A DNA stretch of 64,000 nucleotides from Synechococcus sp. KORDI-49 (lineage in GTDB: Bacteria > Cyanobacteriota > Cyanobacteriia > PCC-6307 > Cyanobiaceae). The translations under genes were made by a program, and so were the position numbers. Below the pieces are notes generated by a model that saw only the letters and a list, made by a program, of their open reading frames with translations, did not search any database and was not told the origin of the DNA. Below, one piece after another: positions 1-31,636 of the stretch. The stretch is taken from contig NZ_CP006270.1 in assembly GCF_000737575.1 (NCBI RefSeq), positions 1,181,163-1,245,162 on the forward strand, given 5' to 3'. Numbering within the stretch: the first letter of the stretch is position 1; the number at the start of each line of letters is the position of its first letter.

Positions 1-2241
1 TTCATATTCAGGATATTTCATAACCTGAACCGCTCCGGCAGCGTTAGGGATAAGAACCTCTTTCTTACCCATATCATAGATTTCCTTTACTCTATCCTGG
101 AACCAACCAATAACACTATCAACAGACATAGATGATTGAGTTGTTTGTTCCCAGAGTTTCCAGAGTGATTTGATTTCATCCCGATTCATTTGAAGTGATT
201 CATCTATCTCATCGTGGATTTTGTAGAACTCACTCATTTGTTTTCGAAGTCCTGCCGAGTATTGAAAAACCATAATCATCTTCTTCGCGACATTCCGTCC
301 ATAACCAAGTGTCGTCCATTCGTCCAACAGGGTGGTTCTAATCGGTGGAACAGGGTAAGACCTATTCACCTCTAACAATCGGTTCCAGACGCGAAGGTAG
401 AGGTCTTGTGGCGTGTTTGACGGAGTGATATTCACCGCCTCTGCGTCAGCGGCGTCTAACTTCCAACCAGCGTGAATACCGGCAGCGGAACAGGACATAT
501 CGACACCACATCGAATGGTGGTAGTGGTTCGTTCTCTCGTGATAAAGATTCGATAGAACTCTTCGCAGGCGGCAGCGAACTGGAAAGGTTTATCAATACC
601 TTCCAAATAGGACAGCGCCTGTTGTTCATTATCTTTCTCAAACATAGTCGCAATCATTTTGATGTCTTCTATGTTCTGAATAACCCACTCAACTCTCTCA
701 CCAAACGAAACCTTATCCTTACCGGCATTATTCGCAATCTCTACACATAACCAGAACTTTGTATGTTCATCTATTGGTTGTGGTTCAGCGAACATAATCG
801 CCGCCTTTTGATAATCGGTTCCCTGTGGTTCTGGTGATGTTTTACAAAGACAATACGCTCTGCCTCTGAAATCCCACATATGAGGATAGTAAAACCTATC
901 AAGTTTTTGTAAGTCGTTGAGAATGTTATAAACCTGACGAGACCTCCTTCCTTTCTCAACCTTCATCAGTTGTCGAGCGTGTTCATTAGACCAGTTCTTT
1001 TTCGCTTGTCTAAACTCCTCTTCTTTCGCTCGCAGTTCCTTTCCTTCCTGTTCGTAATCACCTCTTCTAACCACACCTATCGCTTGCGCTAAATCGATTG
1101 GTTTCTGATAGATGTGAGGAACGAACTTACCTAACTTGAGGTTGCGGTTGTAAAGGTAAGAAAGGAGTTGAGTAATAAAGGGATTGACTTTGTAAGGAAC
1201 ACTCTGTAATCGGTTGATGTATTCCAGATACAAGGGACTTGTTCTCAACTCACCTTTATGTTCCTGTGGTTTAAGAAGGTCTGCGGAAAGTATCCAACTA
1301 CCAAAGTGTTCGTTTGTTGCCTCAACCGGAACACACAACATAGGTAAATCATCGAAACACCATTTCTTTTGTTGTGCGATGTAATGGTCTTTCCATCTCT
1401 CTGCGGCGTCTGTAAGAACTACATAAACCGCTTTTTGATTACCTTCGATTTGTTTCGTATGTTCCTCAAACAAATCACTTCCATACTTTAGACAACCAGA
1501 CAACAACCACGAACCTATGTGTTTTCTATCAGCGCCAAATGGTTTCCATTCCATCGCTTCCGCTTCTGTAATCCTTCCTTCTTTCCGTAGTTCTTCTCCC
1601 TTCCTTTTCAACGCTCTCATCATATTGTATCGCCAATAGAAAGAAGAACTGCGAGGTCTATCATCACCACCAGAACAGAACTTATCGATGTCTGCGAAGT
1701 ATTCAGGAAAACACTTTTCTACATACTTGAAATAGATTTGTTGTTCTACTCTCTTCGCAATCTTATCTATAAGGTTTGACCTATCCACCGCAGGATAGAC
1801 AACCTTCTCTTGTCCTGTTTTCTTATCCACCATCTTTTCTTTCATAGGTGGAGACATAGCGTTATCCAAAATGATTTGAAGTGCGACGAAGACAGCGAGG
1901 TCTAAATCAAAATAGTTTGACCTCTCATCACTTGGTTGGATTTCCTTTTCGCCTGTGTATTTATTTTTCTTGTAGGTTAGGTTTAGTCCTAAACATCTTT
2001 TGATTACTGCGGTTGCGTGAGAAGACCTAATACGAGTAGGTTCATCTATCTCACTCTGTAATCCTTTTACAATCTCGTCAAAATACATATGTTTGAACTT
2101 GCGAGCGTAGGGAGTATTAGAACCATCACTTTTCTTTTCTTGTTCCTCAAGTTCTCTCTTCCACTTTTTATACGCTCTGTCGTTTAGTTCTTGTTCTCTT
2201 TGTATTTGTTTAGCGGCGAGTTCAGTTTCTCTATCATTCAT
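1..2241 (-). CDS. Single-subunit phage/mitochondrial-type RNA polymerase (3' end off window)
   Basis: This reads open for 747 codons from ATG 2241 to the left edge, with no stop, so the C-terminus is missing. It is a DNA-dependent RNA polymerase of the T7/mitochondrial family. Residues 451-463 give YYPHMWDFRGRAY, the family's DxRGR motif (T7 DWRGRVY). The stretch GKDKVSFGERVEWVIQN at 507-523 matches T7 GVDKVPFPERIKFIEEN. Motif A is VDMSCSAAGIH with catalytic Asp581. AVNITPSNTPQDLY follows, like T7 AVNLLPSETVQDIY. Motif B has R649, K653, M657 and Y661 at the same 4-residue spacing as T7 R627, K631, M635 and Y639. The second catalytic Asp (T7 D812, IHDSFG) would be encoded further left. There is no obvious Shine-Dalgarno before the ATG. 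No such enzyme is expected among normal cyanobacterial housekeeping genes, so it most likely transcribes the element itself. Confidence 0.95.
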   Translation of the reverse strand, partial: MNDRETELAAKQIQREQELNDRAYKKWKRELEEQEKKSDGSNTPYARKFKHMYFDEIVKGLQSEIDEPTRIRSSHATAVIKRCLGLNLTYKKNKYTGEKEIQPSDERSNYFDLDLAVFVALQIILDNAMSPPMKEKMVDKKTGQEKVVYPAVDRSNLIDKIAKRVEQQIYFKYVEKCFPEYFADIDKFCSGGDDRPRSSSFYWRYNMMRALKRKGEELRKEGRITEAEAMEWKPFGADRKHIGSWLLSGCLKYGSDLFEEHTKQIEGNQKAVYVVLTDAAERWKDHYIAQQKKWCFDDLPMLCVPVEATNEHFGSWILSADLLKPQEHKGELRTSPLYLEYINRLQSVPYKVNPFITQLLSYLYNRNLKLGKFVPHIYQKPIDLAQAIGVVRRGDYEQEGKELRAKEEEFRQAKKNWSNEHARQLMKVEKGRRSRQVYNILNDLQKLDRFYYPHMWDFRGRAYCLCKTSPEPQGTDYQKAAIMFAEPQPIDEHTKFWLCVEIANNAGKDKVSFGERVEWVIQNIEDIKMIATMFEKDNEQQALSYLEGIDKPFQFAAACEEFYRIFITRERTTTTIRCGVDMSCSAAGIHAGWKLDAADAEAVNITPSNTPQDLYLRVWNRLLEVNRSYPVPPIRTTLLDEWTTLGYGRNVAKKMIMVFQYSAGLRKQMSEFYKIHDEIDESLQMNRDEIKSLWKLWEQTTQSSMSVDSVIGWFQDRVKEIYDMGKKEVLIPNAAGAVQVMKYPEYE

Positions 2242-2349
2242 TTTATTTATAAGGGTAAGGGTAATCCCAGAAGACAACGCAACTGGGAAAGACAGACGCG
2301 AGACATTCGATGTCTCACCATCACGGCATAGCGCCTGTGTTTTATTTAG
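2242..2349 (-). promoter_or_regulatory. RNA polymerase gene leader with two hairpins
   Basis: Between the stop of the upstream gene and the polymerase ATG lie two inverted repeats. One is GAGACAT/ATGTCTC at 2300-2316 with a 3-base loop. The other is TCCCAG/CTGGGA at 2265-2288 with a 12-base loop. Neither is followed by a clear T-run in the minus direction, so they look more like leader structures or RNA-processing sites than classical terminators. Their position suggests control of polymerase expression; this is inference. Confidence 0.4.
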
Positions 2350-2686: not shown

Positions 2687-2881
2687 TCAAATAAGTTGTT
2701 CGTCTTTGTTCTCCCAAGTTGTCGGTAGGATTCGTTGGCGAATAAGGATGTCCCTAATAAAACCAGAGACACTCATACCCTTTTCCATCGCCATCATTTT
2801 TAGTTGGACTTTATCCTGTTGAGAACAACGAAACATAAAATACTCTTCCATCTTCGTTCCTCTTTGCGCTTTGTTCGCCAT
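2687..2881 (-). CDS. Ribbon-helix-helix DNA-binding protein
   Basis: From ATG 2881 the protein is 64 residues: a basic N-terminus, a beta-strand-like YFMFRCSQQD, then two helices (KVQLKMMAMEKG and VSGFIRDILIRQ) separated by a short turn. This is the Arc/CopG-type ribbon-helix-helix layout, normally a dimeric repressor. An alternative ATG at 2851 has a much better ribosome-binding site (AGAGGA six bases upstream) and would keep the whole RHH core (54 aa). Its target is unknown. Its place between the repeat region and the polymerase gene makes an autoregulator or copy-control repressor plausible. Confidence 0.7.
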   Translation of the reverse strand: MANKAQRGTKMEEYFMFRCSQQDKVQLKMMAMEKGMSVSGFIRDILIRQRILPTTWENKDEQLI

Positions 2882-3030
2882 AACGTCTTGATAAAATAAA
2901 TAAAAAATGTAGGACTTACACCGACACAATCTCTTTGCGTCTGTTGCCTGTTCCTGTTCAAGGAAGTGGTTAGATTATCTCCTCTAAACAGGGTGGTTAG
3001 ATTTATTCCTGTGTAGTGTCCCTTTGCCTC

Positions 3031-3115
3031 TTCTCTCTATTACATAACGCATTTGATTAGAGACACCTAGAAGACGCTGTATTGAATGAAAGGGTTTGCG
3101 TGGTAGTTTCTACCT
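3031..3115 (+). repeat. Dispersed repeat B, copy 1
   Basis: It starts with the box TTCTCTCTATTACATAACGC, then CTAGAAGACGCTGT, then a hairpin GGTAG-TTT-CTACC at 3102-3114. Copy 2 has the same order at an offset of 660-661 bases with a different but still paired stem (TGATA/TATCA), so the stem covaries. Strand is assigned by the direction of the box and is not certain. Just downstream ACCCT/AGGGT and TTCACC/GGTGAA pairs (3114-3164) could extend the structure. Confidence 0.6.
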
Positions 3116-3217
3116 TCACCCTATGTTCCATTCGACACAGGGTCATACAGAAGGGTCTGGTGAAGTATTAGATAGTTTCGACATATTCAATAGGGATTCA
3201 TTTCGTCCTAATGATGA

Positions 3218-3632
3218 CTGGTTTCCTTCCTCTACATGTCGGTTCACGAAACCCATTCCAGCGCAGTTGATTTCAAGGAAGACAGAAACATAAACCATCC
3301 TCTCTTTCCTTCCTCTACTAGTCGGACCGTGAGAGTCGTTCCAGCGCAGTCGATTTGAAGGAAGAAAGAATCAAACGACAACCTACCTATTTGTCTTATA
3401 CATAACTGGTTTGGAAATCCATTCCAGCGCAAGGGATTTCAAGGACGATAAAAGCAATCAACAACAGACCTATTTGTCTTATACATAACTTACCGTGAAA
3501 CTCCTTCCGGCGCAGTCGGTTTCAGGGAAGGAAATAACAGAAGACACTTCATCTATTTCTCTTATAGATAACACACCGCGAAACTCCTTCCAACACAAAG
3601 GATTACAGAGACACTAACAACAAATACCTCTA
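3218..3632 (+). repeat. Tandem array of five 83-bp units (repeat A)
   Basis: The anchor GAAAC/TCC-TTCC begins at 3248, 3331, 3414, 3497 and 3580, exactly 83 bases apart each time although the sequences have diverged. Each unit has a pyrimidine-rich box (CTCTACATGTCGG in unit 1, CTTATACATAACT in units 3 and 4), then GAAAYYC-xTTCC-agcgca-GATTTC-aaGGAA. GAAATCC can pair with GGATTTC, and TTCC with GGAA. The two pairings are interleaved, which would make a pseudoknot-like fold in RNA. Unit 5 is the most degenerate. Conserved length despite divergence implies selection on spacing. Confidence 0.8.
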
Positions 3633-3690
3633 ATCAATAACAGAAACTTATGAATAAGGGTAGTTGCGAGAAAGTTTGATTCTGGCGTTC

Positions 3691-3822
3691 TTCTCTCCCT
3701 AATAGTCGCACATCTCACCAGAGGCGTCTAGAAGGCGCTGTATCGAAAAGTTATAGGTTGCGTGATAGATTTATCATACGATGAGTTTTAGACACCTTAC
3801 AGACCATCCTCGAAGGACTGAA
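3691..3822 (+). repeat. Dispersed repeat B, copy 2
   Basis: The copy holds the box TTCTCTCCCTAATAGTCGCA, then TCTAGAAGGCGCTGTA, the hairpin TGATA-GATT-TATCA (3763-3776), then GACACCTTACAGAC (3791-3804) and TCCT-CGA-AGGA. The last three elements recur in copy 3 at a constant 649-base offset without indels. It begins about 60 bases after the tandem array. Confidence 0.65.
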
Positions 3823-4156
3823 TGTTTTGTGTATCAACGAAGTTAGTAATGATTTGAGGTCTGACTACATAAGTTTATATTATTATTCAACAACATTACC
3901 TATTTAGATTGACTCTTCTAGTTATTGAGAACTAATCATCACCATATTTAGTGTCTGTTGAGAATAGATTTTATCATTACATTTCACAGACGCAACTAAC
4001 TTTTGATTTTGTTATTCATCCTATTCAGGTGACTGACCTCTAAACCTATTACTACCACTTACTTTATCTTGTTTTATCTGTCTAACCTACCTTTGCGTCT
4101 GTTAGAAAAGATAAAGAGACAGGATAAAGTCAGTTATAGACAGGTTAGTGAAGATA

Positions 4157-4194
4157 GAAACCATCTCCTCCGCTTCGCTCCGGAGATGTGTTTC
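4157..4194. other. Strong isolated hairpin
   Basis: GAAAC-CATCTCC at the left pairs with GGAGATG-T-GTTTC at the right (12 base pairs with one bulged T) around a 13-base loop. There is no adjacent T-run, so it is not a typical intrinsic terminator. It sits between repeat B copies 2 and 3 and could be an RNA processing or regulatory element. Confidence 0.55.
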
Positions 4195-4339
4195 CGACAA
4201 GTTAGAGAAGTTAGTAATGGTTTGTCTTTTGGGTTTATCCCTACCCACCTCCTTTAGATGGTTCCTCCCTTCCCAGTCCTTATTATATGTGTCTGTAAGA
4301 GATTTGAATCCTCATCATTCGTCAGTTTGTGAAATCTGT

Positions 4340-4471
4340 AGGTGAATCATCGAACCATAAACGCTCTCTAACGCCTCTAAAAGACGCCACAACGAATGGA
4401 AAGGTGTTCTGTGATAGATAGTTCATCCACGCTATTTCAGACACCTTACAGACGATTCTCGAAGGAGTGAG
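4340..4471 (+). repeat. Dispersed repeat B, copy 3
   Basis: It shares with copy 2 CTCTAAAAGACGCC (copy 2 CTAGAAGGCGCTG), the GTGATAGAT hairpin region, GACACCTTACAGAC (4440-4453) and CTCGAAGGA. The offset is 649 bases throughout. The hairpin here is imperfect (GTGAT with ATCCAC). The upstream box is weaker than in copies 1 and 2. Confidence 0.6.
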
Positions 4472-4555
4472 GAATCGATTTCATTACGACATTCTTTGAG
4501 GTGGATAATATAATAGATATAGTGTGATGTTTAGTTAGACACCAGATGTAGTGTT

Positions 4556-4587
4556 ATTGAGAATAAATCAACCAACTCATTCTCAAT
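4556..4587 (-). terminator. Stem-loop after the lipoprotein gene
   Basis: A perfect 9-base inverted repeat ATTGAGAAT/ATTCTCAAT with a 14-base loop lies 7 bases beyond the stop of the minus-strand lipoprotein gene. It lacks a T-run, so it could be a terminator of a non-classical kind or a 3'-end stabiliser. Confidence 0.45.
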
Positions 4588-4594
4588 AAGACAA

Positions 4595-4939
4595 TCAGTA
4601 TTTGAAGTAGGTGTAATCAAAACCATCCTCCTTCATCTCCATACATACATACTGGTTCGTCTCCTTTTCGTTGATACATTTCCTATTTATCTTTGTTGTG
4701 TATTCAATAGAACAATCAACCATCCCACTTACAATCATAGATTTCGCTATATCATCTTTGTAATCGCATACCGGACTAACTGGTTTTTTTACTTTTGTAG
4801 AACCACCTTCCTCTATCCATTTATCTTTCGCAACCTCTGCCTCATACTTTGAACCATATTTACTGGAACAAGAAACAAGTAATAGCGAAAGAACTACAAA
4901 GGATAAACTCTTTACCATCGTTCCATAAGTAGAAGTCAT
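4595..4939 (-). CDS. Small predicted lipoprotein
   Basis: The signal sequence MVKSLSFVVLSLLLVSCSSK ends in a lipobox (LVSC), so the mature protein should be lipid-anchored. The following KYEAEVAKDKW helix and a Cys-containing C-terminal half (about 90 residues) match no family I can name. ATG 4939 overlaps the TGA of the ssDNA-binding protein gene by four bases, suggesting translational coupling. The in-frame ATG 4918 directly before the signal peptide is an equally good start. A membrane-surface role in the host cell is likely; nothing more specific is supported. Confidence 0.65.
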   Translation of the reverse strand: MTSTYGTMVKSLSFVVLSLLLVSCSSKYGSKYEAEVAKDKWIEEGGSTKVKKPVSPVCDYKDDIAKSMIVSGMVDCSIEYTTKINRKCINEKETNQYVCMEMKEDGFDYTYFKY

Positions 4940-5418
4940 CCTATCTTATACCCATCAATCTTACCGAACAACTCCAACATAGAAGGTTCAGATAAGGATA
5001 CAACCTGAACACCAATCGACTTGAATGAAGTTCCATAAGTTATTCCATCTTTGAGAATGTAAGGTTTCTGATAAAACGCAACTCTTACCCTACAACCTGG
5101 AACAAGTGGAAGTGAAGTATCTTTTATCTCAACACAATCTGTATCCACTACTTTTGGTTTGACTTCTTCATTCCAGGAGAACTTTATTTTATATTTGTTC
5201 TCACTAACCTTTTCCCAAGGTTCAGGATTTAGTGAAGAACGCTTCGGATTTTTCAGTTTAGATTTACACCATTCCAACGACTCTCTTCTATCCTCTTTGA
5301 GTTGTGGAATCAAATCCTCATCCATCGTTCCCGCCAAAGAATAACCAAACTTGGATGGTATGAGTATCGCTTGATAACCTTCTAATACAACAGACGCAAT
5401 AAAAGTTTTACGAGTCAT
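4936..5418 (-). CDS. Probable gp2.5-like ssDNA-binding protein
   Basis: The 160-residue protein has an N-terminal strand (TRKTFIASVVLEGYQAILIP) and KFGYSLAGTMDED. Its C-terminal block KPKVVDTDCVEIKD-PLVPGCRVRVAFYQKPYI-YGTSFKSIGVQVVSL has the order seen in T7 gp2.5 and related phage OB-fold ssDNA-binding proteins: a target-residue stretch, a G-(C/S)-x-VRV strand, a PY turn, then G-x-S-x-x-x-x-x-VQVV. The acidic C-terminal tail of T7 gp2.5 is not seen. The match is by pattern, not by alignment, so the call is probable. ATG 5418 is preferred over TTG 5424. With the RNA polymerase it makes a second T7-like function in the element. Confidence 0.6.
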   Translation of the reverse strand: MTRKTFIASVVLEGYQAILIPSKFGYSLAGTMDEDLIPQLKEDRRESLEWCKSKLKNPKRSSLNPEPWEKVSENKYKIKFSWNEEVKPKVVDTDCVEIKDTSLPLVPGCRVRVAFYQKPYILKDGITYGTSFKSIGVQVVSLSEPSMLELFGKIDGYKIG

Positions 5419-5448
5419 AATCAATCAAATCATTTACAAGTAGACAAT

Positions 5449-6833: not shown

Positions 6834-8249
6834 TCATTCGTCCGTATCATCCTCAAATAAATCAACCTTACTTCTCTCAATCCTTTTCTTACCAAGTTCC
6901 GGCATAGTTAGTTCTCTTCCCTTCCTTCGTAGGTTCAACCTCGCATAGGTTCTTTGTGTCTCTCTGATGTCGTGTCCCGCCATCTCTGCGACTTCCATCA
7001 CAGGAGTTCCTTTCATCAACTGGTCTTCAATAAAAGTAGAACGAAGAGAGTAAAGGGTATAAGGATGAGGACTAAACCTATGTCCAGTTAGTTTGTCCTT
7101 CAACTCCTCTCTTATGTCTCTCCATACTTCTCCATAGTGCTTATGTGAGAAACCTGTCCAGTTCCTTCTCACATCACCATAGACAAGAGTGTTCTTATTG
7201 ATTTCCACATTCTTCATATTATTTGATTCGATATATTCCTCTAACCATTCCTTCCATCTCCTCAACTCTCTCGCCTGATTCGCGGGAACTTCTCTCGCCT
7301 GTTGTGTCTTCGCTCTGATGGTGTTGATGTAAGCGACTTCCCACGACACTCTCTTACCTTCACTATTGATTCTCCCTTCATCAATAATCTCAATCTGTCT
7401 CCACCTCAACTTATGTATTTCTTCAGGAGACATTCCCGTGTTCTTACTAAATAGTAAGTAGTGCCAGAATAGATTACGGAAATACCATCCACTTTGATTC
7501 TCTTGGTAAAGAGGTCTATGTCTCCACTCATCCCTAACGAAGTCAATAATAATCTTCCAATCCTCTGGTGTTATCGCAGGGTTTCTCAATAAGTCAGTTT
7601 GTTTGACGATTGTCTTCGGCAAGAAACTCTTATCCATTACCAACTCACTATCCATCAACCTATTCTTTACCAAGTAGTTACGACACCATTCCCTAAACTT
7701 ACCTATCTCTTGTTTCCTACAAATAGTTGTGGTTTCACTTCGATAGATAGGGTAATCATCAAAGGTGGTGATGTTGATATCAGAAGTTAGTGTGATTCCT
7801 TTTCCCAGTAGGAATGGGATGATGTGAAGACGGAAGATACTCTCCTTCCTATCCTTCGATGCCTGTTTCATTAGTCCGGCATCAACCTTCTCTTGTTCCG
7901 CCTCTAACCATCTATTTACCGCAATCTCAATAGGTTGCGCTCTCCTTCTTCTATTGGTTATTAGTCCTGTTTTATAGTTCCTCTCCTTTGGTTGCGCCTG
8001 TTTTTCATTACGACTTCCTTCTATCACTACTGAAACATCAGGTTCCTTGTTCAACTCAAAGGCAATATCTACACACGCCGTCTCTGCCTCATCCATATTG
8101 GAAACACCATCAATCCTCTTCGTCTTATAGGTTTTAGTTCCCTTGATAAGTTCTCGATAAAAGTAATGTCCCGCAGAAGTTCCACTTCCATACAGAACGA
8201 CAGAACCTCTACCTCCTAAAACCTTGCGTTTGTCGATTACCTTCGGCAT
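6834..8249 (-). CDS. int: Tyrosine recombinase / integrase
   Basis: The protein is 471 residues, long for a phage-type integrase, with a large N-terminal DNA-binding part. The C-terminal catalytic domain shows the beta-hairpin Lys (RAKTQQAREVP), a box II YSLRST with Arg and a Tyr in place of the usual first His, then AGHD and the nucleophile context RTYARL. The box I position, normally TG-x-R, reads NTGMSPEEIHKLRW, with Ser in place of the Arg. That substitution is unusual and may mean a divergent active site. The start follows a strong GGGAGGA site. The ATG directly abuts the stop of the GNAT gene, so the two are probably co-translated. It should catalyse integration at the comM site. Confidence 0.9.
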   Translation of the reverse strand: MPKVIDKRKVLGGRGSVVLYGSGTSAGHYFYRELIKGTKTYKTKRIDGVSNMDEAETACVDIAFELNKEPDVSVVIEGSRNEKQAQPKERNYKTGLITNRRRRAQPIEIAVNRWLEAEQEKVDAGLMKQASKDRKESIFRLHIIPFLLGKGITLTSDINITTFDDYPIYRSETTTICRKQEIGKFREWCRNYLVKNRLMDSELVMDKSFLPKTIVKQTDLLRNPAITPEDWKIIIDFVRDEWRHRPLYQENQSGWYFRNLFWHYLLFSKNTGMSPEEIHKLRWRQIEIIDEGRINSEGKRVSWEVAYINTIRAKTQQAREVPANQARELRRWKEWLEEYIESNNMKNVEINKNTLVYGDVRRNWTGFSHKHYGEVWRDIREELKDKLTGHRFSPHPYTLYSLRSTFIEDQLMKGTPVMEVAEMAGHDIRETQRTYARLNLRRKGRELTMPELGKKRIERSKVDLFEDDTDE

Positions 8250-9324: not shown

Positions 9325-9975
9325 AGAGTATTAGTTCTCGACGAGCTGGCGGAATTTTCCCGGGCCGTGCTCGACCAACTGCGGCAACCCCTGGAGGAGG
9401 GCGTGCTGCGGCTCAGCCGCAGCCGCCTGAAAACCACCTTCCCGGCTGCGATCACTCTGGTGGCAGCCACGAACCCCTGTCCCTGCGGCTGGCATGGCGA
9501 CCGTGAGCACGGCTGCCGCTGCAGCCTCAGTCAGCGTCAGCGTTACTGGCAACGCTTGTCAGGCCCCCTGCTGGATCGGCTCGATCTGCAGCTCCGCCTG
9601 GAACGTCCAGCGGCCAGCCGTGTGCGCCGCTGCCTTGAGCCGACGCCGTCAGCCGGCATCGAGCCCTGGCTGCAAGCAAGCTGCATCAACAGCGCCCGCC
9701 AGAGAATGCAGGAGCGCAATCCCGGTGGTGGCTGCAACCGGGATCTCAGTGCCGAGGAGTTCGGCCGGGTCGGGCGGTTGGAACGCGATGGACTGCAGCT
9801 CTGGGAACACCTGATCGCCAGCCGCCGGCTCACCACCCGCAGCGCCCTGAGACTGCTGCAGGTGGCTCGCACGATCGCCGACCTCAACGGCAGGGAGACG
9901 GTGTGCGCCAACGCCGTGGCCGAGGCGAGCTGCTATCGCTGCACCGATCCACTGGTCGTGGACACGGCAGCCTGA
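9325..9975 (+). pseudogene. comM: comM/yifB-type Mg-chelatase-like ATPase, 3' fragment
   Basis: The open frame begins inside the Walker B codons (LDELAEFSRAVLDQLRQPLE) and runs to a normal stop. It contains ATNPCPCGWHGD, the Cys-rich CRCS-Q-RYW-R-SGPLLDRLDL block and the C-terminal helical part ending in a Cys-containing tail. These are typical of the ComM/YifB family (Mg_chelatase, about 500 residues). The N-terminal half with the Lon-like domain and Walker A is absent, so this copy cannot make a full ATPase. In other bacteria ComM is a helicase that helps branch migration during natural transformation. Its loss would be expected to lower transformation efficiency; the 5' half probably lies beyond the element's left end. 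Confidence 0.9.
9328..9345. other. Element-chromosome junction (attachment site region)
   Basis: To the left, an in-frame TAG (9322-9324) and AT-rich DNA. To the right, CTCGACGAGCTG, coding for the LDEL of a comM-type Walker B motif. The native gene would read something like VLFLDEL; here the frame reads VLVLDEL before running into the stop. The crossover must therefore lie at or just before about 9337. The exact core needs the other element end, which is off the left edge. Confidence 0.75.
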
Positions 9976-24496: not shown

Positions 24497-27400
24497 GTGT
24501 CCGCCAATCCCATCACGGATCCCAATGACTACAGATCCGGCAATGAGTGGACTGGCACCAATCAGGATGATCTCCTCCTCTGGGTCAACGGATCCGATCA
24601 GATTGATGGCATGGCAGGAGATGACATCCTCCAGATCCCTCTCAACTTTGCTGATGTCGACATTCATACCTCCTCAACAGGCATCACCAAACTTGATTAC
24701 AAGGAAAACTCCTACACCACACAGAACATCACGGTCTACAACGTCGAGACCATTGCCTTCCTTGATCAGGACCTCGACCTCAGTTCCGCAGACCAGGGCT
24801 TAGCTCCCATCACGGATCCCAATGACTACAGATCCGGTAATGAGTGGACTGGCACCAATCAGGATGATCTCCTCCTCTGGGTCAACGGATCCGATCAGAT
24901 CGATGGCATGGCAGGAGATGACATCCTCCAGATCCCTCTCAACTTTGCTGATGTCGACATTCATACCTCCTCAACAGGCATCACCAAACTTGATTACAAG
25001 GAAAACTCCTACACCACACAGAACATCACGGTCTACAACGTCGAGACCATTGCCTTCCTTGATCAGGACCTCGACCTCAGTTCCGCAGACCAGGGCTTAG
25101 CTCCCATCACGGATCCCAATGACTACAGATCCGGCAATGCGTGGACTGGCACCAATCAGGATGATCTCCTCCTCTGGGTCAATGGATCCGATCAGATCGA
25201 TGGCATGGCAGGAGATGACATCCTCCAGATCCCTCTCAACTTTGCTGATGTCGACATTCATACCTCCTCAACAGGCATCACCAAACTTGATTACAAGGAA
25301 AACTCCTACACCACACAGAACATCACGGTCTACAACGTCGAGACCATTGCCTTCCTTGATCAGGACCTCGACCTCAGTTCCGCAGACCAGGGCTTAGCTC
25401 CCATCACGGATCCGAGTAAATCAGAAATTAATCGAACCCAATGGAACGGAACAACAGAAGATGATGTTTTGATCTGGCTTGGTGGTGATGACATCATTGA
25501 TGGCAAGGGCGGCAATGACACACTCCAAGTTGCACTCAAAAGAAGTAACGTAGTCATTCACACAGACTTTGCGAGGATCAGCAGAATTGAATACGATCAG
25601 AATTCAGCCTTTGGCTCTAAATGGATCACTCTATACAACATTGAAAACATTGCATTCCTCGACAAGACTGAAGCCTTAGAAACAACTTATGACCTGTTGG
25701 AGTTTGACCTAGAACCCATCCTTGACCCCGACGATTCAGAATATATCTCAACCACATGGGAGAACAGCACCAGCAACAATGATTTCCTTATCTGGCTGGG
25801 AGGGGAAGATATTATTGATGGAGGCGACGGAGTTGACAGCCTGAGCCTTAACCTTAAAGACAGTGAGGTTGTTGTCTCCAACAAAACTGCCGGTCACGCA
25901 ACCATAGAGTTCAACAAGGATTCTATATTTGGAGCAAAAAGTATCAAGACCAGGAATGTTGAATACATCGACTTACTGGATAAATCCTATGAGATCATTC
26001 AACCAGAAGTCGCCATCAACACAATTGACGACCCAGGCAATTCAGACTATCTACGATCACAGTGGGCAGGTACAGAAGATGATGATGTCTTGGTCTGGCT
26101 TGGTGGCGACGACATCATTGATGGCAAAGGCGGCAATGACACAATCCAAGTTGCACTCAAAAGCAGCGAAGCATTAATTCATACAGATTTTTATGGAATC
26201 AGCCGAATTGAATACGATCAGGATTCGGTCTTTGGCTCCAAATGGATTACTATTTACAATGTTGAAAATATTGCGTTCCTCGACACAGTTAACGCCTTAG
26301 AAACCACTTATGACAAACTTGGGTTTGACCTTGTCCCTACCCTTGATCCCGATGATTCAGAATACATTTCAACGACATGGGAGAACAGCACCGATAAACA
26401 CGATATCCTTATATGGCTGGGCGGGGAAGATATTATCGATGGTGGCGATGGAGTCGATACTCTTAGCCTCAACCTCAAAGATAGTGAAGTCCTCCTCTCC
26501 AACACAACTCCAGGTCACGCAACCATAGAGTTTGACAGAGATTCAGTACTTGGTCCAAAAAATATTCAGACCAGAAATATTGAGTTTATCGATTTACTAG
26601 ATCAAACATATGAGATCGTTCAGCCTGAGGCCAATACCAACACAATTGATGATCCTAGCAATTCAGACTATCTACGATCACAGTGGGCAGGTACACAAGA
26701 TGACGATGTCTTGGTTTGGCTAGGTGGCGATGACATCATTGATGGCAAGGGCGGCAATGACACTCTCCAGGTTTCTATTCAGAGTAACGAGGCAACTGTT
26801 CATACGGATGTTCTTGGAATCAGCAGAATTGAATACGACAAGAATTCAGTACTAGGCTCTAAATGGATCACCTTCTTTAACATAGAGAATATTGCTTTCT
26901 TGGACAAGATCCACAAGCTCGAAGCCATAGATGAAAAGGACGAATTCAAGCTCTCTCCAACGATTGACCCAGGAGATTCCATGTATTCCATGGATATCTG
27001 GGACAATGGAACAGAACATGATGATCACTTTCTTTGGCTCGCAGGGGCAGACATTATTGACGGAAGTGCAGGCAATGATACTGTTTCCATCAATCTAAAT
27101 GTTGATGACGTTGAAGTGTTCTCCAGCCAAGCAAATGAAACAATCTTAAGATTCCAAAACACAACACATTACACGTCAAATCATCTTTACCTTCAAAACA
27201 TTGAGGCAGTAGCACTCCTTGACGGTAGCATTAATCTAAATGAATCAGAAAGGATTGCCAAGAACCTTGGATCAATTGCCATCGAGATAGAAGGATTCAA
27301 GGGTATTGATTCAATTCTTACAGTTAAGGTTGTCGCTCCTGATCCCAATGGCTATCAAGAGTACAATGTTAATTGGCACAAGTCAGACGATGGCCTTAAT

Positions 27401-30400
27401 TGGACATCAGTCAGCAATAACTATAGCTATGCTTTAACTTCTCGCGATGCCGGAAGCCATATCAGGGCTGAGGCTATTTACGTCGACAACGATGGCTTCG
27501 CAGAAAAAGTCACTGCGGAAGATTTATTCATCCCATCCAATCTCAAGGAAAAGGAATACTGGAAAGCTCAAGGGAAATACCACTACACAGGAGATGAAGA
27601 TAGTGATTATTTCACCTTCAGTGGCTTCATTCAAGGAAATACTGCGAATCACGAGGCTGGATCAGATATTTATCATTACACCTCTGAACTGGATTTATTT
27701 GACTCTCTAGATGGGTCCGGCTTTTACATCTATGATACTCTAGAGAAAGTGGGGGAAGAACAAAAAGAATACGCGAAAGAGAATGCTGGATTGATTGTGA
27801 ATCAATATTATGACTCATATTCCAAGAAGTTGTATTTAACAAGAAGCCCAGAGATCTATCAATATCATGCAAATGACATATCGGACTATGTTGAAAATCT
27901 TGCCTTCATTCATAACGGAGTCACCTATCAATTCAGTGAGTCTTCGCCCCTCGATATCAGTCCTGACGATACATACTCCTATGAAGATCTGGGTATGCTC
28001 TCATCGAATCACGATTCCGAGCATCATGGGGCCGTCAAGAGCCAATCGTATGCTGATTGGTGGTTCTCCGTTGATGATCCATTAAGGGCTGAGATACAAC
28101 TCACTGATTTTCAAGATGATCTTGATATTTATCTGTACAAACTGAAGGATGAGAAACTCGACTTAATTGGGCAATCAGAAGCAGCTGCCTCGAGCCCTGA
28201 GCTTTTAGAAAAGGCTTTAGAAGCCGGAGACTACATTCTTGAGGTCAGCTTCTATGAGGATTTAGACGACTCCTCTGAGCCTAGCCAATATTCCTTGACC
28301 TTTACAACGGAGAGTTTATTAGCAGAAGGAAGCCTCCTGCCAAATGATCCGCGATTCGATGATCAATGGTATCTGCTAAATACTGGTCAAGCTGATGGTA
28401 TTGCACATTACGACGTGTCGGCAGCACAAGCCTGGAAGTCCATTCAAGATGCCAGTGAAATCGTCGTCGCTGTTGTAGATACTGGTGTAAATATTAATCA
28501 CGAAGATCTCGTCTCAAATATCTGGGTCAATGCAGGTGAAATACCAGGGAACGGCCTTGACGATGATCAAAATGGCTACATCGACGATATTCACGGCTGG
28601 CATTTTGATGTTACCTATGCATCAAATCATGTCATGGATTATCGCGGGCATGGCACACATGTCGCGGGAACGATTGGCGCTGAAGGCAACAACAGTATTG
28701 GCGTAACCGGAGTTGCATGGGATGTGCAGCTGATGCCTGTCAAAGTATTTCCTGATATGGATGGTGCTAAATCTGCAAATCAAGATGTATTGGATGGGAT
28801 CAAATATGCAGTCGATAACGGTGCTGACGTTATCAATCTGTCATTAGGGGCCTACCATCTTTATTCGTCACTTGAAGAACTGAAGAAAGATAATCCGCAT
28901 TATTATAATCTTTGGTTGAATGCACTCACTTATGCGAGCGATAACGACGTTGTAGTGATCGCAGCAGCCGGCAACGAAGAATATGATTTAGACACTACTC
29001 ATATCTCAGTTCCCGCATCATTCAGCTCAATCATTCCCGGAATGATTTCTGTTGCGGCAATTGCCAACAATGGAGATCTTGCCTACTACAGCAACTACGG
29101 AGAGACGGTCACCATTGGTGCACCTGGTGGTGACATGAAGACCAACAACAATATCCAAGGGGGCATCTTAAACACTTACAAAAACGGCTATTATTATTTG
29201 CAAGGAACTTCAATGGCTGCACCTGTGGTTGCTGGTGCAGCAGCCCTCATACGTGCTCAATACCCAGAACTTACGGCAGCAGAAGTTAAGCAGGCCATCG
29301 TTGATGGAGCCCAACAATTCAAGCAACTTCAATCAGTCGTGGATGCTGGCAGCTATCTTGACATCCCTGGAGCATTAACGGAAGCTGCATTACTACAGGA
29401 CAACAGCTCAAGGGCTAGACATAAACCAACGCTTCCTGGATTTCTTTCCACTGGGCAAACAATCAAATCAATCAGCCAAGACCCAGGAGAAGCCAGCAGC
29501 GACTCAAATGCTACACAAGCAGTTGAATACCTGTGGGAAATATCATATGACGGCGTTGAGTGGGCGACAGTATCACAGTCTGCGGAATTTGAAATTGAGG
29601 ATGCCCACGAAGGTGCCTTGCTTAAACTCACGGAGGGCTATACCGACGAAAGCAACTCCGTCTACTTCCTGGAGTCTGATCCGAGTCAAATCGAGTATTC
29701 AAATGATGGGGCAGCTGAGTTTCAGATCCAAGGCAACTCACTCGTTGGTAGTGAACTGCTGATTGAGAAAATAAAAGCTGACCCCGATGGTGATGGCTCT
29801 TTTACATATCAATGGCAACTTTCATCTGATGGAAGCAACTGGTCATCCATTGGTTCCTCTCAAAGCCTGCGCTTGGATGAAGCATATGCTGATGCTAACA
29901 TCAAAGTAATTGTAAGTTATACAGACCAGCAGGGATTCAATGAATCGATCGAAACAACTTCTCTGACTATTCAAATTCCTGAGGTCAAGCCACCAGCCGA
30001 AAACAAAACCGATACTTCACCACCAACACTCCAATCTCTCCAGCTCTCATCTGACAACCTTGATCTCTCTCTCGAGACGTCCCTACAAGCTTCCATCCAA
30101 CTCTCGGATGACATCAGCGGCTTTGCAGATGATTCCGCACTTCATGCTGAAATCCGTTGGTTGAGTCCCTCTGGCAATCAATTCGTTGATGCTTCTTTCT
30201 ATGCATCCTCTTCTGGTAATGATCTAGACGCCACATTCACAGATACCGTCTCCTTCCTACCAAGCAGCGAAACAGGAACCTGGTCTGTCGATTACCTCCG
30301 CATCATTGATGATGCTGGCAACAGCACGCAATTCAACAATTCTGAACTCCTTTCTCTCAGCATTGACCCCTCCTTTTCACTTTCAGCTGGTACCGACGGT

Positions 30401-31636
30401 AACAACAACAATACTGATACCGCTCCTCCAACACTCCAATCTCTCCAGCTCTCATCTGACAACCTTGATCTCTCTCTCGAGACGTCCCTACAAGCTTCCA
30501 TCCAACTCTCGGATGACATCAGCGGCTTTGCAGATGATTCCGCACTTCATGCTGAAATCCGTTGGTTGAGTCCCTCTGGCAATCAATTCGTTGATGCTTC
30601 TTTCTATGCATCCTCTTCTGGTAATGATCTAGATGCCACATTTACAGATACCGTCTCCTTCCTACCAAGCAGCGAAACAGGAACCTGGTCTGTCGATTAC
30701 CTCCGCATCATTGATGATGCTGGCAACCGTACTCAATTCAACAGTTCTGAACTCCTTTCTCTCAGCATTGATCCCACCTTTTCACTTTCAGCTGGCACCG
30801 ACGGTAACAACAACAATACTGATACCGCTCCTCCAACACTCCAATCTCTCCAGCTCTCATCTGACAACCTTGATCTCTCTCTCGAGACGTCCCTACAAGC
30901 TTCCATCCAACTCTCGGATGACATCAGCGGCTTTGCAGATGATTCCGCACTTCATGCTGAAATCCGTTGGTTGAGTCCCTCTGGCAATCAATTCGTTGAT
31001 GCTTCTTTCTATGCATCCTCTTCTGGTAATGATCTAGACGCCACATTCACAGATACCGTCTCCTTCCTACCAAGCAGCGAAACAGGAACTTGGTCTGTCG
31101 ATTACCTCCGCATCATTGATGATGCTGGCAACCGCACTCAATTCAACAGTTCTGAACTCCTTTCTCTCAGCATTGATCCCACCTTTGATCTATTCAGAAA
31201 CAGAAACGAGAATTCAATCAGCTCAGACCCTACAGATATAGATGGAGACAATCTGATTCAGCCCCTCACCGATGGACTGATCCTCACCACCGCTGCTTAC
31301 GCCATCGAAGTTGCCAGTGGAGCACTGACGGCACCGGCTTCCTTCAACGGCTCACTGCTTGACGCTGTCATCCATCCGGCTTCCAACCGCTCCACATCAG
31401 CCGCGATCAAGGCACACCTCACCTCCGCCATCAGCAGCTCATCCCTGGAGAGCAACAACAACGGCATCGTTGATCTCCAGGATGCTGAATCCATGCTCCG
31501 CTCTGCCATGGGCACCTTCCCCGGCAATGCTCTTTCGTCTGATCTGGCGGAATCTGCCCTCACTCTTGGCACGGCATCACCTCTCACCCTCGAGCAGCAG
31601 CTCCATGCCATTGAGCAGACCGCATGGCTGGGTTGA
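24497..31636 (+). CDS. Giant subtilisin-like exoprotein with repeat domains (2379 aa)
   Basis: GTG 24497. Residues 5-301 are three almost identical 99-residue repeats with RTX-like DDLLLW-DQIDGMAGDDILQI. Five to six diverged copies follow (IWLGGDDIIDGKGGNDTLQV). Next come an Ig-like module (around 930-1010) and a PPC-like domain. The S8 protease domain has Asp in VVAVVDTGVN, His in RGHGTHVAGTIG and Ser in GTSMAAPVVAGAAAL. Two Ig-like modules, three nearly identical 135-residue repeats (APPTLQSLQLSSDNLDLSLE) and a C-terminal dockerin-like/secretion-type domain (DIDGDNLIQPLTDGLILTTA) complete it. There is no signal peptide, which fits type I secretion with Ca2+-dependent folding. The gene is visibly richer in AT than its neighbours except near its 3' end, suggesting acquisition. 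Confidence 0.93.
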   Translation: MSANPITDPNDYRSGNEWTGTNQDDLLLWVNGSDQIDGMAGDDILQIPLNFADVDIHTSSTGITKLDYKENSYTTQNITVYNVETIAFLDQDLDLSSADQGLAPITDPNDYRSGNEWTGTNQDDLLLWVNGSDQIDGMAGDDILQIPLNFADVDIHTSSTGITKLDYKENSYTTQNITVYNVETIAFLDQDLDLSSADQGLAPITDPNDYRSGNAWTGTNQDDLLLWVNGSDQIDGMAGDDILQIPLNFADVDIHTSSTGITKLDYKENSYTTQNITVYNVETIAFLDQDLDLSSADQGLAPITDPSKSEINRTQWNGTTEDDVLIWLGGDDIIDGKGGNDTLQVALKRSNVVIHTDFARISRIEYDQNSAFGSKWITLYNIENIAFLDKTEALETTYDLLEFDLEPILDPDDSEYISTTWENSTSNNDFLIWLGGEDIIDGGDGVDSLSLNLKDSEVVVSNKTAGHATIEFNKDSIFGAKSIKTRNVEYIDLLDKSYEIIQPEVAINTIDDPGNSDYLRSQWAGTEDDDVLVWLGGDDIIDGKGGNDTIQVALKSSEALIHTDFYGISRIEYDQDSVFGSKWITIYNVENIAFLDTVNALETTYDKLGFDLVPTLDPDDSEYISTTWENSTDKHDILIWLGGEDIIDGGDGVDTLSLNLKDSEVLLSNTTPGHATIEFDRDSVLGPKNIQTRNIEFIDLLDQTYEIVQPEANTNTIDDPSNSDYLRSQWAGTQDDDVLVWLGGDDIIDGKGGNDTLQVSIQSNEATVHTDVLGISRIEYDKNSVLGSKWITFFNIENIAFLDKIHKLEAIDEKDEFKLSPTIDPGDSMYSMDIWDNGTEHDDHFLWLAGADIIDGSAGNDTVSINLNVDDVEVFSSQANETILRFQNTTHYTSNHLYLQNIEAVALLDGSINLNESERIAKNLGSIAIEIEGFKGIDSILTVKVVAPDPNGYQEYNVNWHKSDDGLNWTSVSNNYSYALTSRDAGSHIRAEAIYVDNDGFAEKVTAEDLFIPSNLKEKEYWKAQGKYHYTGDEDSDYFTFSGFIQGNTANHEAGSDIYHYTSELDLFDSLDGSGFYIYDTLEKVGEEQKEYAKENAGLIVNQYYDSYSKKLYLTRSPEIYQYHANDISDYVENLAFIHNGVTYQFSESSPLDISPDDTYSYEDLGMLSSNHDSEHHGAVKSQSYADWWFSVDDPLRAEIQLTDFQDDLDIYLYKLKDEKLDLIGQSEAAASSPELLEKALEAGDYILEVSFYEDLDDSSEPSQYSLTFTTESLLAEGSLLPNDPRFDDQWYLLNTGQADGIAHYDVSAAQAWKSIQDASEIVVAVVDTGVNINHEDLVSNIWVNAGEIPGNGLDDDQNGYIDDIHGWHFDVTYASNHVMDYRGHGTHVAGTIGAEGNNSIGVTGVAWDVQLMPVKVFPDMDGAKSANQDVLDGIKYAVDNGADVINLSLGAYHLYSSLEELKKDNPHYYNLWLNALTYASDNDVVVIAAAGNEEYDLDTTHISVPASFSSIIPGMISVAAIANNGDLAYYSNYGETVTIGAPGGDMKTNNNIQGGILNTYKNGYYYLQGTSMAAPVVAGAAALIRAQYPELTAAEVKQAIVDGAQQFKQLQSVVDAGSYLDIPGALTEAALLQDNSSRARHKPTLPGFLSTGQTIKSISQDPGEASSDSNATQAVEYLWEISYDGVEWATVSQSAEFEIEDAHEGALLKLTEGYTDESNSVYFLESDPSQIEYSNDGAAEFQIQGNSLVGSELLIEKIKADPDGDGSFTYQWQLSSDGSNWSSIGSSQSLRLDEAYADANIKVIVSYTDQQGFNESIETTSLTIQIPEVKPPAENKTDTSPPTLQSLQLSSDNLDLSLETSLQASIQLSDDISGFADDSALHAEIRWLSPSGNQFVDASFYASSSGNDLDATFTDTVSFLPSSETGTWSVDYLRIIDDAGNSTQFNNSELLSLSIDPSFSLSAGTDGNNNNTDTAPPTLQSLQLSSDNLDLSLETSLQASIQLSDDISGFADDSALHAEIRWLSPSGNQFVDASFYASSSGNDLDATFTDTVSFLPSSETGTWSVDYLRIIDDAGNRTQFNSSELLSLSIDPTFSLSAGTDGNNNNTDTAPPTLQSLQLSSDNLDLSLETSLQASIQLSDDISGFADDSALHAEIRWLSPSGNQFVDASFYASSSGNDLDATFTDTVSFLPSSETGTWSVDYLRIIDDAGNRTQFNSSELLSLSIDPTFDLFRNRNENSISSDPTDIDGDNLIQPLTDGLILTTAAYAIEVASGALTAPASFNGSLLDAVIHPASNRSTSAAIKAHLTSAISSSSLESNNNGIVDLQDAESMLRSAMGTFPGNALSSDLAESALTLGTASPLTLEQQLHAIEQTAWLG
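24512..25402 (+). repeat. Three tandem 297-bp repeats in the protease gene
   Basis: Units start at 24512, 24809 and 25106 with ATCACGGATCCCAATGAC. They differ at only a handful of bases, so they arose recently or are kept alike by recombination. Diverged copies continue downstream to about 27.2 kb at protein level. Each encodes 99 residues with an RTX-like Asp/Gly motif. Confidence 0.95.
30023..31190 (+). repeat. Three tandem 405-bp repeats in the protease gene
   Basis: Units begin with CCAACACTCCAATCTCTCC at 30023, 30428 and 30833. They are nearly identical in DNA and encode 135 residues each (the last unit is shortened at its end, where the C-terminal domain starts). They lie downstream of the protease domain. 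Confidence 0.95.

Follow-up and report, generated by a model that had tools for sequence, protein, structure and literature searches.

A five-unit, 83-bp array in a polymerase-bearing integrative element of Synechococcus combines a palindrome found near phage primases with promoter-like sites

The window, a stretch of 64,000 nucleotides, covers positions 1181163 to 1245162 of the 2.59-Mb genome of Synechococcus sp. KORDI-49. A mobile element that begins to the left of the window extends into it as far as about position 9345; its GC content is about 40%, against about 66% in the surrounding host DNA. The element interrupts a gene that we take, from its protein, to be comM-like, and the flanking halves are the two parts of this gene. 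An 11-bp direct repeat, TTCTCGACGAG, lies on the plus strand at window 9335–9345 and has its left copy at L002:8509-8519, so the element is about 16.8 kb long.

The element encodes a tyrosine integrase, recognised by database homology (6834–8249, minus strand), and a gp2.5-like single-stranded DNA-binding protein (4936–5424, minus strand; phrog_112, E 3.4e-16; 54% to the podovirus-like locus L051). A T7/N4-like single-subunit RNA polymerase is present on the minus strand, with its N-terminal part at window 1–2277 and the full 885 amino acids at L002:15620-18277. The polymerase matches PF00940 (E 8e-24) and phrog_414 (E 2e-109), and alignment to the T7 enzyme (1aro) shows that it carries motifs A (D), B (R...K.......Y) and C (HD) of T7-like polymerases; these motifs and the homology of the catalytic domain place it among the T7-like single-subunit enzymes. 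A NikA-like protein (2687–2881, minus strand; Pfam PF21983, E 4.6e-07), presumably a ribbon-helix-helix protein, has a homologue at 1209-1388 of locus L049. Among those ORFs of the element that were searched, none was recognised as a primase, helicase or DNA polymerase, and queries with podovirus helicase and polymerase and with two primases had no match in the element at E 1e-4.

The phage relatives first listed for the polymerase are those of cyanopodoviruses, at about 25% identity, in keeping with a picocyanobacterial host. L049, from another genome, shares the downstream cassette and a NikA-like gene with the element, and its polymerase is 30% identical. The closest polymerase relative (L026:9658-12316, 43–46% identical) is broken into two open pieces with one stop inside the first, on a contig that holds two integrase genes, of which one is fragmented. 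In a tblastn comparison, loci that have an integrase resembling that of the element and a polymerase, without a podovirus helicase or polymerase, include L026, L027, L035, L037, L040, L043 and L052; L041 has such an integrase, and its polymerase falls below the cut-off of that comparison. Searches of genome_contigs and viral_contigs with the element protein, the L050 polymerase and a 125-aa cassette protein gave no confirmed relative, and the plasmids searched gave three weak matches. Small genes of unknown family form a cassette (L002:11411-15191) that is conserved in several elements (L049, L050, L033, L063 and L064). In genome G205 (L063 and L064) parts of this cassette adjoin repeated small ORFs resembling peptide precursors, which we liken to precursors of the prochlorosin type.

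Tycheposons are elements of marine picocyanobacteria known for tRNA-associated integration and family marker genes. The present element is like them in carrying an integrase and in the kind of host, but it sits in a comM-like gene rather than a tRNA gene and carries an RNA polymerase.

An array of five 83-bp units, starting at 3218, 3301, 3384, 3467 and 3550, occupies positions 3218–3632 in noncoding DNA of the element, and the NikA-like gene is the first gene of a known family downstream of it. The first-pass annotation had described an exact 83-bp period in five diverged units, and this is confirmed with zero indels. Across the region 2900–4600 the best lag is 83, with 69% identity over 250 bp against a maximum of 42% in 500 Markov resamples, and TRF calls period 83 at 3326–3592. 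Pairwise identity among the units is 49–72%, and the 83-mers on either side of the array are unrelated to them (13–31%). Neighbouring units differ at 23, 33, 28 and 27 positions, 111 in total. Among the 20 polymerase loci scanned no 83-bp array is present; the best lag of L026 is also 83, at a chance-level identity of 42%. The noncoding region matches these 20 loci with a best E of 0.06, and blastn of the whole region against phages gave three matches at chance level.

Conservation is concentrated in two blocks in each unit, both read on the minus strand: block 1, GAAAYCSNYTGCGCYGGAANGGRTTTC, and block 2, GTTATSTATAAGA. Minus-strand pairwise identity is 74% in the core columns of block 1 (27–53), 57% in columns 1–26 and 35% in columns 54–59. 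In the promoter-like columns of block 2 (60–80) it is 65% overall, 90% within units 3–5 and 86% between units 1 and 2, which makes block 2 the best-kept part within each of these two groups.

Block 1 contains the GAAAYYC...GATTTC pair that had been noticed earlier as an anchor at 3248, 3331, 3414, 3497 and 3580; each anchor starts a 27-bp near-palindrome, termed here the core. The pair had been described as kept in every unit and is clean in units 1 and 3 and imperfect in the other three. The interleaved TTCC...GGAA pair is clean in units 1 and 2, reads GGAC in unit 3, is shifted by one in unit 4 and is absent from unit 5. Measured against the viral core pattern (AAYCNNYTGCGCYGGAANGGNTT), the minus-strand cores have no mismatches in unit 1 (3248–3274, GAAATCAACTGCGCTGGAATGGGTTTC), two in unit 2 (3331–3357), none in unit 3 (3414–3440, GAAATCCCTTGCGCTGGAATGGATTTC), one in unit 4 (3497–3523) and three in unit 5 (3580–3606), the most decayed. 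The core of unit 3 is identical at 24 of 24 bases to viral contig L071. A shuffled element gives 0.13 core matches at up to four mismatches (30 shuffles).

The core is also found in viral contigs, where it occurs singly; no tandem array of cores was found in any other locus examined. A scan of viral_contigs gave 17 loci and a looser pattern 26, one of them already counted, making 42 distinct loci. Fourteen of the 42, representing about ten distinct sequences, are inside a primase-like gene or no more than 1,023 bp from one, and for eight of these the primase queries include the locus's own protein. At the other 28 the flanks examined contain no primase-like gene within 5 kb of the core; 13 of them share closely similar flanks and probably represent one gene. 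Two of the 28, L088 and L100, have instead a T7-like polymerase, 6.1 and 5.6 kb from the core. All eight core neighbours tested by Pfam, at loci picked from the 42 because repeats had been seen by eye around the core, are primase-helicases, of the VapE, DUF3987, PriCT_2/Prim-Pol with AAA_25, and zinc-ribbon kinds.

The association was also approached from the primase side. Two primase queries fetched 160 viral loci, and the 450 bp 3' of each gene were scanned at up to three mismatches. After exclusion of loci with less than 200 bp downstream (4 of 80 and 2 of 80), the zinc-ribbon group has the core 3' of the primase gene at 35 of 76 loci, with none in the inside-gene control and none after shuffling, and the VapE group has it at 7 of 78, with one in the inside-gene control and none after shuffling; many loci are near-duplicates, so these counts are not independent. 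The two seed primases had themselves been found through the core, and dropping L112, L113, L192 and L211, the four contigs in the sample that the pattern scan had already yielded, leaves 33 of 74 and 5 of 76. The form of the core near these primases is closer to a perfect palindrome (TTGCGCYGCAA).

Repeats flank some of the viral cores. Eight copies of AACTGTTA in L075, six of GCCCTACC in L071 and seven of CGTCCCAA in L106 exceed all 200 resamples, and among 24 viral loci tested these are the only three that do so with a non-simple word. The repeats in L090, L093, L094 and L108 fall within the resamples, L068 is tied with them, and the repeated word in L101 is a CA run. The flanks of two viral cores gave no clear homologue among phage and plasmid records. 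Viral cores often sit after genes and some end in four or five T, as transcription terminators might; the terminator reading is given less weight because in L090 and L093/L099 the primase gene itself contains the core.

A relaxed core pattern occurs at 24 places in 22 of 400 genomes of the host family, and a reversed control pattern has none among the matches listed for the same genomes. Two of the 24 places are in this array, one is in a related element in G398 and 21 are outside such elements. Eleven of the 21 are in ORFs of at least 100 aa and about 13 share one repeated context; no primase-like gene was present in the flanks examined. Likewise, none of five core matches in genome_contigs is near a primase query.

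The 3' sides of polymerase genes were also scanned, with stop positions computed by script from reading frames of which some are short or broken; a core at up to four mismatches lies within 400 bp 3' of the polymerase in only 4 of 25 loci. One of these is the related element L050, whose core has one mismatch and is located 34 bp downstream of the polymerase stop codon; after it comes TTAATAGGATAAG, which looks promoter-like and has a T7-like core score of 11, equal to background. Weaker palindromes with four mismatches are present in L052 and L027, and the L028 match is inside an ORF. The other 21 loci have no core at this threshold, and they include the 3' side of the polymerase of the present element.

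Block 2 starts seven bases after the core on the minus strand, with GTTATSTATAAGASAAATAG in units 3–5 and GACWWGTAGAGGAAGGAAA in units 1 and 2. The promoter-like sites are at 3553–3572 in unit 5 (GTTATCTATAAGAGAAATAG), which gives the best cross-element match to the L049 array, at 3469–3489 in unit 4 (GTTATGTATAAGACAAATAGG) and at 3386–3406 in unit 3 (also GTTATGTATAAGACAAATAGG). Sites of a second subfamily are at 3304–3323 in unit 2 (GACTAGTAGAGGAAGGAAAG) and 3221–3240 in unit 1 (GACATGTAGAGGAAGGAAAC). All five are on the minus strand and point toward the NikA-like gene and the polymerase operon, which are on the same strand. With a matrix trained on them the array sites score 23.5–33.6, and the next place in the element scores 10.7.

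Seven similar sites, spaced 22–30 bp apart, are found in L049 in noncoding DNA ahead of the corresponding genes and on their strand. The L049 array has no core at up to four mismatches, and the gene order, from array to NikA-like gene to polymerase, is common to the two elements. A matrix built from L049 only has unit 5 as its top match in the 17-kb element (25.3, against 19.6 for the highest of 300 resamples). The reverse matrix, built from the present array only, has its top three matches in the L049 array (25.3, 11.5 and 8.5), of which only the first stands out since the highest of 300 resamples is 20.4. The best scores at the other, unrelated loci scanned are 16.8 (L037) and 19.0 (L055). 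Since both elements had been used to choose the sites by eye at the outset, this comparison is support and not a blind test. By blastn the block 2 region matches L049 over 36 bases (83% identity, E 9e-5). The promoter-block pattern has no match in viral_contigs.

The T7-like promoter core is CACTATAGGGAGA. Judged by eye the array sites are weak against the T7 consensus. Six of 25 loci have this core at a score of at least 15 of 19 immediately 3' of the polymerase; the corresponding rates are 2.0% for shuffles and 1.4% for random segments. The six include the present element (TCTAAAGGGAGAAGG), L049 and the podovirus-like L028, in which the 22 bases of AGTGCCACACTATAGGAGAAAG are present twice within 20 kb. 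The flank of these sites 3' of the polymerase differs from that of the array sites.

We propose that the array acts in cis as a DNA control region for an integrative element driven by its polymerase, and that it is made of cassettes that each join a putative origin core to a promoter; we give this reading an even chance. Each 83-bp unit would be one cassette, in which the 27-bp palindromic core, taken to be an origin core of the kind beside phage primase-helicase genes, precedes the promoter-like sequence by seven bases on the minus strand. The cassettes would control transcription of the element and probably its replication too. The element's T7-like polymerase would start at up to five sites in the array, toward the NikA-like gene and its own gene, and the transcripts would raise polymerase expression. 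They may also prime replication at or near the cores, which would help in opening or priming, and the 83-bp spacing, about eight helical turns, may align the sites along the same face of the helix. In this mechanism, the likeliest of those considered and drawn from sequence evidence, the transcription half is based on conservation and orientation and the replication half on the neighbours of the core elsewhere. The earlier suggestion of evenly spaced binding sites fits, as the palindromic core formed by the anchor pair is present near phage primases too and the second block appears promoter-like.

The proposed control region resembles known systems in part. In T7 the primary origin consists of tandem promoters that prime replication, and the present sites are similar in their TATA-purine core, purine-rich start, tandem arrangement and location on the strand of a polymerase gene with motifs A, B and C. 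However, the array sites diverge from the consensus, the polymerase is about 25% identical to cyanopodovirus enzymes, and no phage DNA polymerase or helicase was found by homology in the element. Other origins adjoin or lie inside the gene of their initiator and have iterons, as in lambda, where ori is within O, and in SaPIs, where it is beside rep. Their short conserved core near replication genes is matched by the viral-contig core 3' of or inside primase-helicase genes, and the viral cores of L071, L075 and L106 lie between repeats beyond chance. Unlike these origins, the present array has five tandem cores at exactly 83 bp and not one, it lies in an element without a recognised primase and adjoins no recognised primase-helicase gene, and a promoter-like block takes the place of iterons.

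A more general proposal is that RAAYCCNTTGCGCYGSAANGGRTTT is an origin core common to temperate phages with unrelated primase-helicases (VapE, DUF3987, PrimPol/AAA and zinc-ribbon). In this family of integrase elements a T7-like polymerase would have replaced the primase, and the array would therefore be a transcription-primed origin of five core-plus-promoter cassettes. We put this forward tentatively, as one possibility. If true, these proposals would join integrative elements that bear a polymerase and have no recognised primase with a palindrome common to the neighbourhoods of unrelated phage primases. They would give precise sites for how such elements begin transcription and replication, and a handle for locating origins in uncultured temperate phages. 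In the part of the literature that could be searched no such link was found, nor any paper joining "single-subunit RNA polymerase" with "phage satellite". The same searches found no paper joining TGCGCTGGAA with "origin of replication" and none for CTTGCGCCGCAAG or CTTGCGCTGCAAG; sequences printed in figures would escape them.

The cores might instead be operators for a DNA-binding protein of the element, such as the NikA-like protein, and the array a tandem regulated promoter that tunes expression of the polymerase operon through the promoter-like sites and has no role in replication. This is rather unlikely, even though the NikA-like gene and the polymerase follow the array directly and share its strand, and with both this order and the promoter-like block conserved in L049; a private operator would not explain why the core recurs beside primase genes in viral contigs.

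Somewhat more doubtful is an origin array served in trans, at which the primase-helicase of a helper phage or a resident element would replicate the element and the promoter-like block would replace iterons. The presence of cores and a gp2.5-like protein in an element whose searched ORFs include no recognised primase is consistent with this, as is the occurrence of viral cores beside primases of several families, but none of the 21 other cores in the family genomes has a primase-like gene in the flanks examined.

Tandem duplications drifting without function are very unlikely. The decay of unit 5 and the absence of an 83-bp array from all 20 polymerase loci scanned would fit drift, yet the 111 differences have accumulated without an indel, and conservation is concentrated in two blocks that each recur in other elements.

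The first-pass annotation had also suggested small RNAs in tandem, each about 80 nt long and with a pseudoknot-like arrangement, kept by selection on length and pairing. The exact period suits this, as do the fold z-score of −3.15 for unit 5 on the plus strand and a weak outer inverted repeat (plus-strand columns 9–14 with 59–64) in which three pairs have changed on both sides. However, minus-strand z-scores run from −1.2 to 0.8 and plus-strand ones from 0.1 to −3.2, and nine of the ten unit folds (five units, two strands) lie between −1.5 and +0.9. RNAalifold consensus folds reach −2.5 and −1.7 kcal/mol, and an Rfam scan of the window at gathering thresholds gave no match. Over ten pseudoknot pairs, 84.0% of cells are paired against 83.3% in shuffles, of which 318 of 500 are as high; the pairing thus goes no further than conservation of sequence. 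The covariation score of the outer inverted repeat is reached by 43 of 500 shuffles, and paired DNA half-sites could explain it equally well. Folding or covariation beyond chance, by which tandem structured small RNAs would be recognised, was not found. The annotation had held that other periods in related elements would count against its reading, and L049 provides this in part, with a period of about 25 bp; the whole-locus TRF listing is noisy and incomplete. A row of small RNAs is the least probable of these explanations, and the array is more likely to be a DNA control region.

Other repeats are present in and around the element. In the noncoding region the array is flanked by three related segments, each about 110 bp long and containing long inverted repeats (3050–3163, 3711–3820 and 4365–4470); they share a 37-nt match at 76%, and L026 12670-12780 is similar by eye. 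A dyad like ACACTARATNTRGTGT adjoining TTCTCAATAA was seen by eye at 3921–3938, at 4553–4570, at the left end of the element and at about 215-275 of L049. The commonest 9-mer of the element is ACAGACGCA, which occurs 16 times from L002:8561 to window 9250. Over 16,690 bp of the element the motif CAGRCGC has 35 copies, both strands counted, in genic and intergenic DNA and in some cases as inverted pairs around short loops; there are 14 copies in 9.5 kb of L050 and 0–3 in L026, L049, L051 and L052. It is possibly a genome-wide tag, for example a priming or packaging site. Outside the element, tandem repeats are found at 24508–25413 (297 bp, 3.1 copies, 99% matches) and at 30002–31186 (405 bp, 2.9 copies, 97%).
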